A program made the translations under genes and the position numbers. Under the pieces are notes generated by a model, which made no database searches, was not told where the DNA came from, and saw nothing but the letters and a program-made list of their open reading frames with translations. Of a DNA stretch of 64,000 nucleotides, positions 1-62,130 are shown piece by piece. Origin of the DNA: Moniliella sp. 'wahieum' (Eukaryota; Basidiomycota; Moniliellomycetes; Moniliellales; Moniliellaceae); NCBI GenBank assembly GCA_003971905.1, contig RSEE01000108.1, forward strand, positions 62,001-126,000. The letters are read 5' to 3'. Numbering within the stretch: position 1 is the first letter of the stretch; each line of letters opens with the position of its first letter.

Positions 1-836
1 CGCCTTCCGAGCCGTACTGCACGCCATGCCATGACGTATGGATCGGTCCATCGGTCCCGTGCGAGGCCGGGTTGGAACGTAAAAAGTCCACTGGTTGCGG
101 GAGTGAGGACGACAAGGACGCATTGATCCCCGCCGGCACGGGCTCGGCAAACTCACTCTTTTTCATTGCGGCCAACATGCTATCCCACGTCCAGTCGCTC
201 CCGTTGGTCTGCAGCGCCGCCCAGGCATCTTGCTCCACTTGGGTGTGCCGTGTCTACTCGTAGAGGATGGGGCGTACGACCAAAGCGCAAAAAAACAGAG
301 GGTAGGGGGGGTCAGACGTGCCGTGGCTTGCACTACATACTCAGTGTGCCCACGAGGAAAGATGCGGTGGGAGGGACTGAGGGTAGAATACCTTGAAACG
401 GGGAGAGAAAGGGGACATACAACAAGCATGATGTTGATCGCGCTAGACCCACCGAGCACTTTGCCGCGGGGCCAGGAGACTTGTCGCTGGTCCATCTCAG
501 CCTGGGGGACGGTGAGGTACTGCCAGTCCTTGTCGGTGCCAAAGGTGACGGTGGACGGGTTGAACATGGCATTGGGGGTGGTGATGTTGGTATCGCCTTC
601 GCCGCTGGCTCCCGCCTCGAGGACAAGGACGGTATGGTTGGTGCCCTGGGTCAAGCGAGACGCGAGCACGAGGCCGGCCGTGCCTCCTCCAACGATGAGG
701 TAGTCGTACGTCTGCCCATCAAAGTCGGTCGGGACGGAACTGATGCCGCCGGGCACAGCGGTAGGCAGCGCATGGCTGCCCACACTCAACCCCCACCCAG
801 CGAGAAGAAGAACGAACGGACGCCGGCGAGACGCAT
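1..836 (-). CDS. GMC-family FAD oxidoreductase, N-terminal part
   Basis: Start of a glucose-methanol-choline oxidoreductase (aryl-alcohol oxidase/choline dehydrogenase type), cut by the left window edge. The ADP-binding motif YDYLIVGGGTAGLVLASRL is followed by VLVLEAG, the PRGKVLGGSSAIN signature and, after an intron, VEQDAWAALQTNGSDWTWDS. These are the usual first third of the family; the catalytic His/Asn end lies outside. Exon 1 is about 421-836 and exon 2 is 1-253. The intron (254-420, 167 bp) has donor GTATGT and acceptor TAG. I chose the ATG at 836 (MRLAGVRS...), which gives a signal-like hydrophobic stretch (FVLLLAGWGLSVGSHALP) if one indel near 800-815 is assumed; in the main frame there is no ATG. 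It is probably secreted or enters the secretory pathway. Substrate unknown. Confidence 0.85.
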
Positions 837-32705: not shown

Positions 32706-32864
32706 TGTCGGCCTCGCTACTACCACAGAATGTGAGCACTGAACGTCGTATTTGACTAAGAAGCTTCTGCGACTGACTCGTCCAGAAGACTGGTGCGAGC
32801 TCGGAAGGAATGAAAGCTGACTCACGTGACTCAGGGTCCGCGCGGTCCTAGGACGGATGTCACA
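32706..32864 (-). repeat. Copia LTR, left copy (3' LTR of the element)
   Basis: 159 bp direct repeat matching 37331-37490 almost perfectly. It is followed inside the element by CCCCCGCTG, whose complement is the short purine tract expected next to a 3' LTR of a minus-strand element. Confidence 0.95.
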
Positions 32865-35800
32865 CCCCCGCTGACGGAGGGCCCAGTCATGTGGACTGGA
32901 TCCATCTCGACGCGGAGTTGAGCAAGATGGCTTGTCAGGGCGGGACGGCCGAGAGGCTTGAGGACGTCCGCTGGGTTCCTTTCGCCGGGGATGTGTACAA
33001 GTATGGCCTCGCCCGAGTCCACGTGTTGCCGTACATTGTGGTACCGGATCTTCAGCTCTCGGAGCTTGCCGGTGCTGCCAAATTGTGGGCGAGATCGACG
33101 ACAGACTTATTGTCGCAATACCAATGAATGGGTGTACCCTCGCCGATGGCCCCAAGCTCGATCATGATGTTCTTGACATAGTTGGCGTCAACCAGTCCAT
33201 CATATCCTGCCGTATTCGGCGGCGGCGGTACTGGTAACGCTCTTCGGCTGAAGAATGGATCGCCACGACACCGGCACACCGTACACCATCAGTAGGCATC
33301 CAGATGTGGAGCGTGCCTGGATGGGATCTCCCGCCAAGTCGGAATCTGTATACAGCGCAATGGCCGGTGCATCTGATGTTGGGGTCAACCTCAGGCCCTT
33401 TCCTCGAGTATGGTACAGGTAGCGAAGGAAGTCATCGACTGCTTGATGATGCTGCTGCGATGGGTCGGCAGCGGCTCTGCTGAGGGCCGTGATAGCGAAG
33501 AGGGAGTCAGGCCGGCCCATTCGTGCAGCCCACAGTCCCGATCCGATCTTCCCGATATGCCTTGCGCAAGGCTGGGAGGGATGGGGTTCAGGGTCGGCAC
33601 GGGCGGTATCATCCGTACGGGATGTGGGAGAGTCCGGATCCACGGGCTTTGATGTGGTGCTTTGCCACCACTTTCCTCGATGAACTTTGGTTGGCTCAGG
33701 TACAGCTCCCCACCGATCCGATCGTATTGGCATCCCAGGTGGTAGTGAAGGGGACCGTTACCACGAACATCAATGTGTGTGTTTATCTCGGCCATAAACT
33801 CCTCGTACTTTTGGTGTGACTTGCATGCGAGGAGCAGATCGTCGGTGTGGACCGCCAGGAGGATCTGCTCACCCGGTGGTGCAGCGCGCACGAACAAGCA
33901 GGGCTCGGTCAAGCTTTGCGTGAAGCCGAGCTTGTCACGCAGCAGGTTCCGGATGTATCGTGCCCAGTTTGCTCCGCTCTGATGTAGCCCGTATAGACTC
34001 TTCTTGAGACGCCACACGCGACCACCCGCTTCGGGGAAGTAGGGGGGTGGGCGGATGTAGACTGCTTCTTCGAGGGGGGCGTTCAGGTACGCTGCATTGA
34101 CGTCCGCCGAGAAGAGGCCAAACTTAACTTCTCGGCCAGCACGACGAGGGTCAGGATGGCAGGTGTGCGCACCGATGGTGCGAACGTCTGGCCCCAAGTC
34201 TCGGCCGATTGTTGGTGTCCGCCCGCGACAAAGCGCGCGCGGTGGCGCAGGAACCGGCCCTCGGCGTCCGTCTTTGTGGTGATGCGCCATAGTCCTATGA
34301 GGATTTGTGCACCCGGTGGTGGGTACGTAGCCTCGTAGGTGCCGTATCGCGCGAGTGTGGCCACCTCGTCGGCCATAGCCTGCTTGACCATGGCAAAGGA
34401 GGGGTGAGTCTCGAGACCCTTGAGCGTCTTGGGAGCGAGGGGTACGCCATCCTTGGTGAGCTGAACCGTGTCCGGGTGGATGGGTGCGCTGAGAGCAGTC
34501 ATGGCGGCGTATTCGGGACATGGGTGCTGCCGCGGCTGGCGGAGTAGGGTTAGCGTCTTTTTCACTGTCGATTTTAATTTGAGGTGATTTGGAGATGTCG
34601 GGTGGGAAGTGGTCGGGGTGGAGATGGGGGTAGATGGCGTTGCCCCATTTGTACGGTTTCGACCAGCGGTAGGTGAAGGTACCCAGGGATGGTTGGTATG
34701 TGGCGAAGAGCCATCCCTTTGATCCGCGCTGATGGTGGTATCCTACCAGCATACCTTCCTCTGCCCGCGCGCTGAGCTTGTGCTCGCGGCGTGACTCGGG
34801 CAGATGGAGGTATGCAACGCGGCCAAAGGGTTGCATCGGTAACGAGTATGCGTGGCCTTTGTATCGCTCAAATCGCGATTTGTTGTCTTCCCCGGATGTT
34901 TTGAGTGGCATTTGGTTTTGGGTGAAGCACGCAGCGTGGAGGCTGTGTTCCCACCAGTCCGACGTCGGAAGACCTGTACCCAAGAGCAACTGCCTTGCAC
35001 GAGTCGTTATGGTTCGGATGGCACGCTCAGCCACACCGTTGCTAGCACTCTGCCCCGGGATTGTCCGTTCTGACGTGATGCCTTGCTCGTCCAGAAAAGG
35101 TTGCAGTGCGCTTGTCAATTCGGGGGCGTTGTCCGTGCGCAAAGTCCGCAGCAGTCTGTCCGGGCCGTAGCGTTGCTCCCGCAATATGAGGTTCCGCAGT
35201 TCCTTCGTTGCAGCGCCCTTTGTCGGGATCGCTGTGGTGAAGACGTACCGCGTGAAGTCATCAACGGCGACGAGGGCGTATCCGTGCCCCATGCCGGTTA
35301 CCCGGGGGAGGTCTACTACGTCGACGTGGAGGACCTCGAAAGGTCTTTGGATCGGAGGCGGTCCCGGCTCGGATGGGGCGATGCTGTCGCTAGTGCCACC
35401 GCGCATGTTGGGCAATCCCACTCTGAACGACAGAGGGAGATATGCTTGGCTGTGACGCGGAGGCCTGCGGTTTCCGATCGTGTAAGCCAGGGGAGGAGGT
35501 CGATGGCTGCGTGGTTCCAGCGTTTGTGGGCTTTAGAGACGTGGTCCAGGGCCAGGGATGCTGCGAGGGAGTTTGGGGTTGAGGGTGGGTCGGCCGGTTT
35601 GATCGGTTTGGTCGCCATGGCCCGCAGGGGTGTGGGTGGCGTTCGCGGGTTGTGTAAGATCGTGAATTGATAGTCACTGCCGGTTACTTTTCGTAGGGTG
35701 GATCCTGGGTTACCAAGCCAGATACCCTTCTGGTGTGGGGCGAAGTATGATGCGATTCCGGTGTTCGACAGGTGTGCTACACTGACGAGATTTCGGCTGA

Positions 35801-37330
35801 AACGGGGCATGTATAGGCTGTTGGGGAGTTTTATCTCCATTTGGTGTCCTCCTAAGCATCGGATACGGATTGTGGCCGTGCCTCGTCCTTCCGCCTTTAC
35901 ATGTGTCCCGTTAGCAACCTCTATCTCGTCGTCGCAAGGGGTCATGGATGTGAAGACGGATTGTCTTTCCAAATGGATGGGAATGCCCCACTGTCATATA
36001 ATGCCCGGATGATTCGCATTTCGCCCCCGAGTTCCTAGTAGTCAGCTGTGCCGCATCAACGTCAATCACTTCAGACTCGGGAGAGCTCGCTCTCTGAGCG
36101 ACGTGAGCGTTGGCTCGGCCTGGGTTGCGCGGAGGGACAACAGGTTTATTAGACGTCGCGCTGCGCCAGGGTTGGTTGGTGCGGTCTTGCCCCTTGGTCT
36201 TTGTGTCCGCGAGGTTGTCGTCGCCGGCTTTGCCCCCGCTGGAGTTTTTTCCCCGCTGGTGGGTCGTCCCCCGCTGTCGGGTCGAGTCCAAGGCGTTCCT
36301 CCGTTGACCGGCTTGCCTCCGTTTCTCTTCCTTTCTCCACCGGGATACGTGGCGGCTGGTATGTCCATCACGGCCTGCCGTAACTTGTCTAGACTCGAGC
36401 GCTCTTCACGCTGGCGAATGCTCATGTCGCGTAAGCCGAGTAGGATCCCAGTGCGTTCCTGCTCTTCCGTAAGTGGGATGCCCGCTCGCGTCAGGCTTGC
36501 ACTGATCTCTTCCATGTAGTCGAGGTAGTCTCGACCCGATCGGTTCCTTGGTCGGCCGAAAAGTAGCGAATGAGTAGAGGCCCTCTGTTTGCGGTAGGCG
36601 TATATCCATACCGCTGACGCAGCATGTTCAGCGTGTCCTGGGTGCATGATATTCGTGGTGGGTGCGGATCGTCCGGAAGAGGGTTGACGGCATGGCTTCC
36701 CTAAGAAGGTTGTGCAAGCGTCTGTCGAGGTCCTCGGTGAAGTAGCGGGAGCTGCGACCATTCTGGACGACGTCGCTTGCGTGGGGGTGGGCATCTGTTA
36801 TCGCGAAGAGAAATTCGTCTTCCCAAGCGCTGTAGGCGGACGGGTTTGTTCAGATCAGGCCACTTGATATTCTTGGTGGGAGACTCGCGTAGTGATCTGT
36901 AAAGGTCGTACTCGGGTCGCGAGGCTGCGCCTGTAGGTGCCCCCAAAGTTGCGTTGGGTTGAGTTTCCATTTGGTGGATGTTTTGCACCACAAAATTCGT
37001 AGCCCGTCGAACCCAGTTTGTCGTGATAGACGTAGGTTCGTCCTTCCATCCAAGCCACTCGGCTCTGTCGTGTATAGCTCTGTTGATCTTCTCTTTAACG
37101 ACATCGATGTCGTTCGTCTTCTTGAACCACAGGTGCGCTTCGGCGCAAAGCATCATGAGTTCCTCGTTGTCGGTGCCAATCGGTGGCGGATCGCGACCGG
37201 TTGGTGTCCAGTAATCGCGCTTGTTCACCATTGTGGTGTCGCTGACCGAGAGATCGGTGTTAGCGTTGGCGCCCATGGTTGTGGGTGTAGTTTTGGCCAG
37301 CTCAGGGATGAGCAGATAAGGATGTAACTC

Positions 37331-37490
37331 TGTCGGCCTCGCTACTACCACAGAATGTGAGCACTGAACGTCGTATTTGACTAAGAAGCTTCTGCGACTG
37401 ACTCGTCCAGAAGACTGGTGCGAGCTCGGAAGGAATGAAAGCTGACTCACGTGACTCAGGGTCCGCGCGGTCCTAGGACGGATGTCAACA
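37331..37490 (-). repeat. Copia LTR, right copy (5' LTR of the element)
   Basis: 160 bp direct repeat, partner of 32706-32864. The target duplication CCTGG follows immediately. The adjacent internal sequence (GAGTTACAT on the minus strand) occupies the primer-binding position; I could not assign a tRNA. Confidence 0.95.
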
Positions 37491-45588: not shown

Positions 45589-46641
45589 GGTAGAGAGGCT
45601 GGGCAGCAAGATACGGAAGGGTGGGGATGGTGGGGGGCGAAAGGCGTTCGCAACACGCGCACAGACGGCGGGTTTTAACCGGATGAAGCAGGGCGCAGCA
45701 CGGCAGCAAGTCGATCTTGGGGAGAGTGGGTGGGTAGCGCCGTGCTGTGCCGTGTGGTTGCCGGTGCCGTTGCGCGCTCGCCAGCCGCCCGTATCCTCCC
45801 CAAGCGCCCTCCCCCCGAACAGAAATGCTCGGCGGGGGGCCGGGTCGCCGACGGGGGGCGGGTATCAACACTGGCGCTGTGCCAGTGTTTCACATGTACC
45901 CCGCCTTGCAAACCTTGTCTTCTGTGGGCGTCCGAGATTGAATCGCTGCGCCAAACGTCACGCCTCCAGCTGGGGTGTGCTTGGCCTCGGTTTGGCTGCT
46001 ACCTCAGCCTGCACCGCTCCGCCGCACAGCCGGCGTGCTGCCTGGCCATCGTCCAGCAAGCCGTTTGATGTCAGCGTCCGCCCGCCCAGCATCGGCGCGG
46101 GAGCCAAAGTCTGCCCAGGTTGCTGGGCGCCGAGGGCAGCAATCGGTCTGCGTGCGACATGTGAGGCGAATAAATTGGTCCGTGCGGTAGGTAGGCGCAA
46201 AATTCGCATTACTAATTGCGGTGTCAGCACAGTGTGAGGAAGTACACTGCCCCCTGCGCTGCTCCGATCCGGTCGGCTCGAGCTGGCGGGGATCGTCCCG
46301 AGGATGATGCAATTGAATATTGTCTGAACGCAAGCAGCCGCCGATGGGCAGCGCACTAGGAAAACTATTCACTCGCAGCAGAAACAGGCGTCCACTGCCG
46401 GTCACGCGCCCGTTCAAGTCCCTCGCTTGGCGCGTCGCTATCATTGCGTCTTGCTCGAGTCGTCAGTCTGACTTCCTGTCCGTGGCGTTCGAGGGGTGGG
46501 AGGGGGGGGAGCAACCGAGTCGTGGCTCCCGCCAGGGTTTGGAGCCAAGCGTCAGCGTCCACCGTCCAGCGTCCAACGTTGAAGTTCAACCCACAACCCC
46601 CAACCATGTTGCCACGGGCCGAACTGCTGCCATAATACATC
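45589..46641. other. Upstream region of CCP1, no gene recognised
   Basis: About 1.05 kb between the CCP1 start and the second LTR element. GCCAGTGTTTCACATG with an inverted CACTGGCGC... occurs near 45870-45895. No coding similarity seen on either strand. Confidence 0.45.
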
Positions 46642-46646
46642 GCATA

Positions 46647-46886
46647 TGTTGGCCTAGGGAGCCGGACGGGCAGAAGGATGAGGAGAAGGTGATGGATTGG
46701 AGCCAGAGTTGGGTCTGGGTACAGAGGCATCTATATAGGAGGCTGGACTAGGCACAGGGACAGTGAGTCACACAGGAGAGAGTGCAGGGCACAGGGACAG
46801 TGACACGCAGGGACGTCAGCGTGGAAGCCGATGGAACCGAGGCGAACCTGGTCTACCGACTGGGAGCCAGAGGATCACAGTCAACA
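46647..46886 (-). repeat. 240-bp LTR, left copy
   Basis: Identical to 47803-48042. Contains CTATATAGGAG (TATA-like) at about 46730-46741 and direct sub-repeats of GGCACAGGGACAGTGA. Preceded by the target duplication GCATA. Confidence 0.95.
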
Positions 46887-47607
46887 CCCCCGCTGGCCAG
46901 GGAACCCGGAGACATCGGTTGTGGGATGAGCTCCTGCCAGTGGATGTAGAGAGGGGAGGACTTGAGTGGCAACCGGGACGAATGGCCTGGAGTTGTGCAT
47001 GGCCACACGACTGGCCTACACCCCCGCTGTCCAGGATGACACCTGAACGAGCCGAGCGCTTGTGGTTGGTGTATTGTGCGACCGCCAGATGCTTGTAGAA
47101 GTCTTAGAAGTAAAAGTAGTAGGGGTTGCGCCCGAAGCGATTTGGTGGGCAAAAGTAAAAAGCACCAGTTATAGGTGTAGTGAAAGAAAATTGGAAACTT
47201 GGAGTAAATGCGGTCCAAGGTCGTTTGGCATCAAATTGGATGCGTTTGGTAGTTGTTTGGTTCCGCATGCCTGGTGCCAGTGGGGTCCATTGGGCATGGG
47301 AAATGAACGGGCGCTATGCGTCAACCGTCTTGATCTGTTTGGGTTCTCTTTGTTGTTGAAAAAGAGGAGTGGAAGAAGTTGGGTGACCACCCCCCCCATC
47401 CTTTCCCCAGGTGCCCCGGATGAATTGGCAATCCGGGGCGTGTAGCCGTGGGTGGGGCACTTGATGAGCAGCCACCCCGCTTTCTGCGATTCGCCTGCGC
47501 CGTTTTGTCGTTGGAGGAATTTCGTCTCGTTGACGATACCCGACACGTTTTGTTCCGTCGTGTGTTGTCCCTAAAAATCATTGCCCCATCTGTGGGGGAC
47601 GAGTGTG

Positions 47608-47692
47608 CCGATTGTGGCGGTAGTATGCCGATTGTGGCGGTAGTATGCCGATTGTGGCGGTAAGGTGCCGATTGTGGCGGTGGTGTTGTTGG
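47608..47692. repeat. Four tandem copies of a 20-bp unit inside the compact LTR element
   Basis: GTGCCGATTGTGGCGGTA-type units repeat with a 20-bp period, then continue into GGTGGTGTTG. Position within the interior suggests a spacer rather than coding sequence. Confidence 0.85.
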
Positions 47693-47802
47693 GCGGGAGG
47701 ACGGGTGTGTCTTGTGGGCTTGGCGGCTTAGCTTGGGCTTGTAGGCTTGGGGTGGGCTTGCTTGAAGAGCGCTCCCCTTCCGGGGGGATCAGATTGTAGC
47801 TC

Positions 47803-48042
47803 TGTTGGCCTAGGGAGCCGGACGGGCAGAAGGATGAGGAGAAGGTGATGGATTGGAGCCAGAGTTGGGTCTGGGTACAGAGGCATCTATATAGGAGGCT
47901 GGACTAGGCACAGGGACAGTGAGTCACACAGGAGAGAGTGCAGGGCACAGGGACAGTGACACGCAGGGACGTCAGCGTGGAAGCCGATGGAACCGAGGCG
48001 AACCTGGTCTACCGACTGGGAGCCAGAGGATCACAGTCAACA
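47803..48042 (-). repeat. 240-bp LTR, right copy
   Basis: Identical to 46647-46886 and followed by the target duplication GCATA. The adjacent interior on the minus strand reads GAGCTACAATCTG, similar to GAGTTACAT at the same position in the copia element. Confidence 0.95.
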
Positions 48043-48306
48043 GCATATCACATGTGATCATGTCCTGTGACCAGGGTGGCCCCAATGTTCATTGCCCAGA
48101 AACTTTCAATGGGGGCGATGAACATTTGGAAAACGTTGAGGCTCTGGCGCAGCGGCGCTGACATAAGCCGCGGACGTGCGGCGGCCGAGGCGGCCGGGAA
48201 GGCAGGCAAAACACACAGCATCCCACCACCACACCCGTCGTCCCATCACCACCACCGCCACCGCCACCGCCACCACCACCACCACCCCCACCACCGCCCT
48301 CTCGCC

Positions 48307-61135: not shown

Positions 61136-62130
61136 TCACCAGAGCTGGTTCATCAAAGCGAGGGAATACTCGACACCAACAAACGTGGCAGCGTTGGCCG
61201 GGAACGCACGCGCCATGGCTGGCCAAAAGCCCCGGAACAGGGCGCGGACGCCGTCGGCAGCGACGGTTTTGCGAATACAATCGGCAAAACCAGTGTATGT
61301 TCCGGGTGGGGCGCCCTGGATGCGCGACTTGATCACATCTGGTGGCATGGCCAAGGACCACATGGCCATCCCGGCCGTGCCACCGGCCAGAATGACATGG
61401 AGCAAGCTGAGTGATTCGCCTGGTTTCGCCCCGCTGGGAGTCAAGCAAGTTTTGATGGACTCGTAGGCGCAGAAGTAGGCCGCGCTGCCGGGACCGTCGC
61501 GGGCCAAGGTGGCGCCTGTGCCGCGGAAGATGGAGCGCAAGCCGCCCTCGGCATACAACTGTTTCAACACATCCCCCACCCCGTTGTACTGCGGTCCATG
61601 TGCACTTTGGCCCTGCAGCTGCAGCAGCACCTTGACCCGTTCCGCCGGGCCCGTGGCCAGCGTCGTCGGCACCGCACTGAAGAATCCGGCAAAGGCAAGC
61701 TCGGGCAAGGTCAAGGTTGGGTCCGCGCGATTGGGCGTCGCGGCATAGACCAGTTTCTTGCCCATGTCGTACGACCAAAAGGACAAGGCAAAGATGGGCG
61801 TGACCCCCAAGAAGGGAGGAAGCATGCCCCGATACAACCTACCCAGGCAAAGGTCAGATCATGGAAACCAGTACGCAGCCGCACTCACGCTCACGCATAC
61901 GTACCCACGCACCCCATCCGCCGCAATCGTCTTCTTCACCACGTCCAGCGCGCCGGTATATGTGCCGGGCGGGCGGTCTGCAGGCGGGTCTTGGTCAGGT
62001 CAAACGGTTGGCCGACCAGCACGGCGGCCATGCCCCCAACTCCGCCAGAGAGGAAGGATTTGATCGGGTCCGTGTCGCCCCGCTGCTCCTCGTACGAAAC
62101 GGACACGTCCTCGACGGATGGGTCGGACAT
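61136..62130 (-). CDS. CRC1: Mitochondrial carnitine/acylcarnitine carrier
   Basis: Two exons: 61905-62130 and 61136-61838, with a 66-bp intron (donor GTACGT). Starts MSDPSVEDVSVSYEEQRGD. It has three mitochondrial-carrier repeats: SFLSGGVGGMAAVLVGQPFD LTKTRLQ, GFFSAVPTTLATGPAERVKV LLQLQG, and AGGTAGMAMWSLAMPPDVIK SRIQGAPPGTYTG. Each has the PX[DE]XX[KR] signature. The combination GPAERVKVLLQ with the third-repeat wording fits the carnitine/acylcarnitine branch (yeast Crc1) in the inner membrane. One base is missing near 61970 (a C in the first repeat, PPGTYTGALDVVKK). Ends FVGVEYSLALMNQLW. Confidence 0.88.

Follow-up and report, generated by a model that had tools for sequence, protein, structure and literature searches.

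Among the closest described counterparts of the element analysed here are fungal TRIMs. According to sections of Kojima 2024 (PMC10886601), fungal TRIMs have a tRNA-Tyr anticodon PBS in common with Copia, fungal Helenus elements resemble Copia at the PBS, and in most fungal Helenus elements the PBS fits a tRNA anticodon loop (that of tRNA-Tyr, -Ile, -Asp or -iMet) in its spliced form. The same sections count 113 Helenus TRIM families in Pucciniales and some in Agaricomycetes, and part of another paper (PMC5689174) records TRIMs for three out of five genomes of Boletales, which makes the statement in the preliminary description of this locus, that such elements are rarely described in basidiomycetes, too strong. 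The present element, located in a window of 64,000 nucleotides (positions 62,001 to 126,000 of contig RSEE01000108.1, Moniliella sp. 'wahieum', assembly GCA_003971905.1), shares with Helenus (TRIMp3) the 5-bp TSD and the anticodon-loop PBS that sections of PMC10886601 give for most fungal members.

Among plant TRIMs, as portions of Gao et al. 2016 (PMC4717578) describe them, some families, those with gene fragments, measure 1,172–1,449 bp; arrays bearing a single TSD, with LTRs in common between neighbours or with elements paired in inverted orientation, occur as they do here, and Ty1-copia partners are present, whereas in our case the host is a fungus and the partner is alike at the LTR junctions only. 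Cassandra too, according to part of a paper on it (PMC7215508), is an LTR element that lacks genes and forms tandem arrays, again as here, but, unlike the present element, it carries 5S rRNA; an Rfam search here returned three matches, all weak (E up to 1), and 5S was not among them.

The preliminary description had proposed a TRIM-like, non-autonomous element, and the features on which it relied were borne out. The 240-nt direct repeat (46647–46886 and 47803–48042) is 100% identical over exactly these coordinates, the element totals 1,396 bp, GCATA was read on both flanks (46642–46646 and 48043–48047), and the 916-bp interior contains no retroelement ORF as judged by frame length, the longest frame wholly within the element being 127 aa. 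The same classification is supported by the PBS and PPT, the TSDs and a repeated family. In the minus-strand reading, the LTR end ...CCAACA is followed by the PBS GAGCTACAATCTGA, and CCTGGCCAGCGGGGG stands directly before the 3' LTR; the plus-strand orientation was set aside, since the letters adjoining the LTRs fit a copia PBS and PPT on the minus strand only, and with minus as the sense strand 47803–48042 is the 5' LTR. The label "TRIM-like" is used because 1,396 bp exceeds the strict TRIM size limit, the length lying within the broader one that includes the plant families mentioned above (PMC4717578, in part). The features are as follows.

46642..46646, no strand: TSD GCATA (left)
46647..46886, minus: 3' LTR with TGTTG...CAACA ends, oriented via PBS and PPT
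46887..46901, minus: PPT1, CCTGGCCAGCGGGGG, adjoining the 3' LTR; 21 nt over the junction identical to copia family 8
46887..47802, minus: interior of 916 bp without retroelement gene
47021..47035, minus: PPT2, CCTGGACAGCGGGGG, an internal copy with TGTAGG behind it; in sense, position 783 of the interior
47602..47681, no strand: 20-bp tandem repeats, in sense ...GCCACAATCGGCATACTACC...
47789..47802, minus: PBS GAGCTACAATCTGA, 13 of 14 nt complementary to the anticodon arm predicted for spliced tRNA-Tyr(GTA)
47803..48042, minus: 5' LTR (sense is the minus strand)
47888..47893, minus: TATATA, possible promoter TATA box of the LTR, at sense LTR position 150
48043..48047, no strand: TSD GCATA (right)

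The window copy lies between a peroxidase gene on the left, which is read leftwards (start near 45609), and a THO2-like gene on the right. Judged by its proteins, the host is safely a fungus and probably a basidiomycete, the latter chiefly on account of one ribosomal protein. Among the best 120 of 5,316 matches to a 190-aa uS4 query, whose frame includes an intron, a Solanum-labelled record (52%) and a further protein (70%) come first, and the 31 proteins carrying a fungal name that stand ahead of the first ascomycete all belong to basidiomycete genera, at 59–67%, with one Hordeum-labelled record among them. A Prp19 query gave 8 proteins, two of which lead at 66–70%, while those bearing a species name, at 40–51%, include no basidiomycete, a result that lends the placement no support. 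MCM7 has its highest scores with yeast chains, followed by animal ones. An Rfam match to RsmY in the LTR was taken as chance (18 bits against a gathering score of 57).

Further copies and solo LTRs, proposed in the preliminary description as a check, were sought throughout the assembly to which the window belongs (69.5 Mb in 223 contigs). With 40 of 188 first-look candidates scored, the whole element gave at least 61 matches, 51 of them near full length at 97–100% identity, while the LTR-end pattern (up to 3 mismatches) was found at 228 places (reversed control 0) and the LTR/PBS junction pattern at 92 (control 0). These 92 junctions form 74 clusters, 14 of which hold more than one junction (one of the 14, on C22, through a chance match in the flank), and include an LTR end with a chance flank match (C22:353682) and an aberrant junction (C32:448725), so that at most 90 are ordinary. 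Because 136 LTR ends have no PBS after them, the genome should hold, outside the clusters, about 60 further LTRs that are solo or partial, a figure that is an estimate, as indels escape both patterns. Twenty-five insertion units, chosen as best matches and not as a random sample, were read individually: 15 have a single LTR-interior-LTR structure, and an exact 5-bp TSD with differing flanks was found in 20 of the 25. The TSD is inexact or absent in three testable units (C34, C22 and C13:555996), and the remaining two, C145 and C27, have ends beyond the sequence examined. Targeting of tRNA genes was considered and set aside, ARAGORN having found no tRNA in any of the 36 TRIM loci, out of 38, on which it was run.

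In 27 LTR pairs, which are not all independent since some share an LTR inside arrays, 6,436 sites were aligned; they show no substitution but 35 gap events, and 13 pairs are fully identical. Over the 44,030 bases of all aligned pieces, 42 substitutions were counted, though several are misaligned indels, together with 296 gaps; 238 gaps belong to the homopolymer-like class, and the gaps as a whole resemble sequencing noise. The many indels between copies, as long-read noise would give, speak for the identical repeats being a duplication made in assembly, but the exact TSDs with differing flanks in 20 of 25 units led us to reject this explanation, whose probability we regard as negligible. At the fungal substitution rate of 1.05e-9/site/yr quoted in PMC5689174 (consulted in part), a 240-bp pair would gain one substitution only per ~2 My; the upper bound on age obtained from 3/6,436 per site at this rate, on which it depends, is ~0.2 My. 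The preliminary description had read recent movement from repeat identity: recency stands, resting on the 27 pairs, whereas one identical pair is weak as dating evidence. By the family-level result of 0/6,436 the family is judged to be young.

The LTRs of Helenus hold tRNA-like sequence (PMC10886601, in part), whereas no tRNA model matches here: the LTR gave no Rfam tRNA match up to E=10 and no ARAGORN match. When LTR positions 1–80 were compared with 20 tRNA loci the score was not above that of shuffled sequences (34 of 200 reached it), but when the sense LTR was compared in full with these loci, 4 of 200 shuffles reached the score, which speaks for a tRNA-like sequence. On the same side, a box-A/box-B-like string, TGGCTCCCAGTCGG...GGTTC, is present in the sense LTR and was matched by 10 of 2,000 shuffles, the pattern having been chosen after reading PMC10886601. 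Sense LTR positions 18–43 (both LTRs, minus strand) read TGGCTCCCAGTCGGTAGACCAGGTTC, which resembles Pol III boxes A and B and may represent the remnant of a tRNA-like promoter. The antisense LTR matched tRNA locus L085 (0 of 200 shuffles), a result discarded as an artefact, L085 including 20 nt of TRIM; at this locus (G000:C1:621040-621161) a TRIM dimer on C1 ends about 20 bp from a tRNA-Thr gene.

For the helper that, according to the preliminary description, is or was active, a candidate was found in copia family 8 (L071; e.g. C12:229435, with a 211-bp LTR), which is identical to the TRIM over 21 nt at the PPT/U3 junction and over 17 nt at the U5/PBS junction. Below E=0.1 only these two junctions match, the next match, to the internal PPT2, having E 0.11 and the one after it 0.44. 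The TRIM does not have the structure of an internally deleted family-8 copy, as the LTRs differ in sequence throughout and no body is shared; with bodies and LTRs unlike, the link between TRIM and helper rests on 38 nt. Nine loci of family 8 were followed (at least nine exist in the genome); in the eight other than C12, every LTR located is 97.7–99.5% identical to the C12 LTR, the 5' LTR of C31 not being found within the stretch examined. Open frames of 1,158–1,202 aa cover the integrase match at C12, C57 and C100, and 5-bp TSDs were identified by eye at C12, C44, C57, C100, C63, C4 and C52 and found absent at C152.

With the TRIM itself being of the same kind, its helper could also have been another LTR family, whether extinct, unsampled or the copia of the window itself (32706–37487, minus). 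The latter has 157-bp identical LTR cores, with true ends by eye 2–3 nt further out and the TSD CCTGG, and its PBS GAGTTACATCC and PPT CAGCGGGGG both resemble those of the TRIM, with GAGTTACA at the PBS. The 150 RVT_2 matches scored have widely differing scores, which indicates several copia lineages; out of many copia loci, 30 partial ones among them, the non-family-8 ends examined beyond the window copia were those of five regions (L069, L070 and L072–L074), among which L074 has an LTR pair without TRIM-like PBS or PPT words and L072 and L073 have no LTR pair within the stretch examined. Against another helper, the 21 and 17 nt of family 8 compare with 12 nt at the PPT and 6 nt at the PBS junction for the next best, the window copia, and with 10 and 6 nt for copia family 4, all in register. 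Moreover, a pattern in which a base other than T comes after the exact U5/PBS end of the TRIM was found at one place only, C3:1256759, which is probably a TRIM variant because a TRIM LTR end lies ~1.15 kb away and the place is in the LTR/PBS junction list. We therefore regard another helper as improbable, and family 8 as the likely one on the evidence of the shared junctions. A copia adjoining a TRIM LTR on C16 was dropped as a helper candidate, having inserted into that LTR; at this locus (L069, G000:C16:692900-700400) a copia of another family sits inside the TRIM LTR, and its ends show a 5-bp overlap of TRIM letters.

The primer of Drosophila copia is tRNA-iMet. Half-tRNA priming in that element, described in part of PMC5371799, uses a truncated tRNA primer as proposed here, and sections of PMC10886601, which name the Copia element Copia-50_PHord alongside the TRIMs, give it an anticodon-loop tRNA-Tyr primer. 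A pattern of anticodon arm plus T arm was found at 37 places in the genome (control 0); 22 of the 28 examined share the form GATTGTAA, variable intron and CTCTGAATGTCCTGGGTTCGACTC (one with a missing base), and the other six do not. We interpret the 22 as genes for tRNA-Tyr(GTA) whose intron follows nt 37; tRNA-Tyr is absent among the 20 loci typed from the 63 best tRNA matches. Exon 1 was read from GATTGTAA on and nt 27–29 were deduced by stem pairing, and the spliced anticodon arm completed in this way, TCAGATTGTAACTC, is fitted by the TRIM PBS at 13/14 nt, by the variant PBS GAGTT... at 14/14, and by the PBSs of the window copia and family 4 at 11/14. Among the tRNA matches, 41 score equally at 59.1 bits, and the two of these that were typed (L083 and L093) are tRNA-Ala(AGC), which may be unusually multiplied.

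Since the usual PBS is one base off the primer, inheritance of primer sequence can be read in each copy: of 32 LTR/PBS junctions, 26 have C and six, in five of the 25 units, start GAGTT. This C>T change at PBS position 4 is the most recurrent substitution (4 of 30 aligned copies, 3 loci). The T is found in one of the 15 single LTR-interior-LTR units, which would be below the half expected under equal inheritance of both strands. Lauermann and Boeke are said to have found in 1994 that in Ty1 the primer tRNA sequence is not inherited. The copies with GAGTT could be an inherited subfamily instead of fresh tRNA copies, given that a single base differs and that two of them, in array C145, are not independent; yet the T loci have no other common substitution among those listed, four of the five units carry differing rearrangements, and the variant T is the base complementary to A37 of the tRNA-Tyr-like genes, which together make a subfamily doubtful.

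It is highly probable, from sequence comparison, that this is a non-autonomous, gene-less 1.4-kb TRIM-like LTR family whose LTR drives transcription, whose RNA the proteins of copia family 8 package and reverse transcribe in trans, and whose copies integrate with 5-bp TSDs. TRIM RNA would start in the LTR and be packaged and reverse transcribed by the Ty1/copia proteins of family 8; minus-strand synthesis would be primed by a 3'-truncated mature tRNA-Tyr, presumably produced by cleavage, whose anticodon arm pairs with the PBS, and plus-strand synthesis would proceed from PPT1 and at times from the internal PPT2, before integration of the cDNA generates the 5-bp TSD. The kind of element is already known; the family is new, and its by-products are informative. 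As this young fungal TRIM-like family and its candidate helper are present in one genome, both mobilisation in trans and the smallest set of cis signals needed, some 38 nt at the LTR junctions, become testable.

A second PPT is also present in Ty1, as its central PPT (PMC5371799, in part), and in our element PPT2 predicts the positions of aberrant cDNA ends. Insertion C23:609273, which consists in sense of interior 783–916, LTR, interior and LTR and has the TSD ATACC, begins exactly at interior position 783, that is at PPT2, and is the one unit among those read in which PPT2 forms a genomic end; such a product would be expected if plus-strand synthesis had started at PPT2. In C32 a PPT2 end is joined to an LTR end (TSD TCCAC), and an aberrant junction reads GAGTT and then LTR position 14. 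C2 is a dimer joined LTR to LTR with one extra base (TSD TCTCG), C23:473915 has an LTR head to head with a full element by an exact U3-U3 join (TSD CTTTT), and C7 and C11:50045 are dimers with a shared LTR and one TSD each. In C11:51040 the PBS reads GAGTTACAATCT and then jumps to interior position 168 within the 20-bp repeats, which also hold ACAATC, and C34 is a palindrome centred at GGTAGTACTACC in these repeats, without TSD. We infer that the composite units may have formed during reverse transcription.

The shared LTRs, LTR-LTR junctions and inverted pairs of the arrays might alternatively have arisen by recombination between copies after integration, as unequal crossing-over yields dimers with a shared LTR and one TSD, such as C7 and C11:50045, and homogenised LTRs would also be expected. 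Recombination leaves unexplained, however, why the PPT2 end has a TSD of its own, why letters resembling the tRNA stand at the aberrant junctions of C11:51040 and C32, and how the exact U3-U3 join with one TSD in C23:473915 came about, and we regard it as less likely than not. Formation during reverse transcription would make the family a genomic record of its intermediates, in which PPT2 supplies integrase with an additional usable end (TGTAGG), cDNAs that are U5-U5 ended or joined at their ends insert with the usual 5-bp TSD, and tRNA-Tyr primer sequence passes into a minority of the copies, unlike in the Ty1 report; to this fuller reading we give an even chance. A far-from-full search on fungal TRIMs, tRNA-half primers, arrays, PPTs and primer inheritance, with its sources consulted in part, brought up neither a described TRIM insertion that ends at PPT2 nor described variants with tRNA letters. 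A further rearranged unit, C14:766848-768195 (L025), has interior positions 47–109 deleted, with a 12-nt filler that produces a telomere-like GGGTTAACCCTAACCC string.
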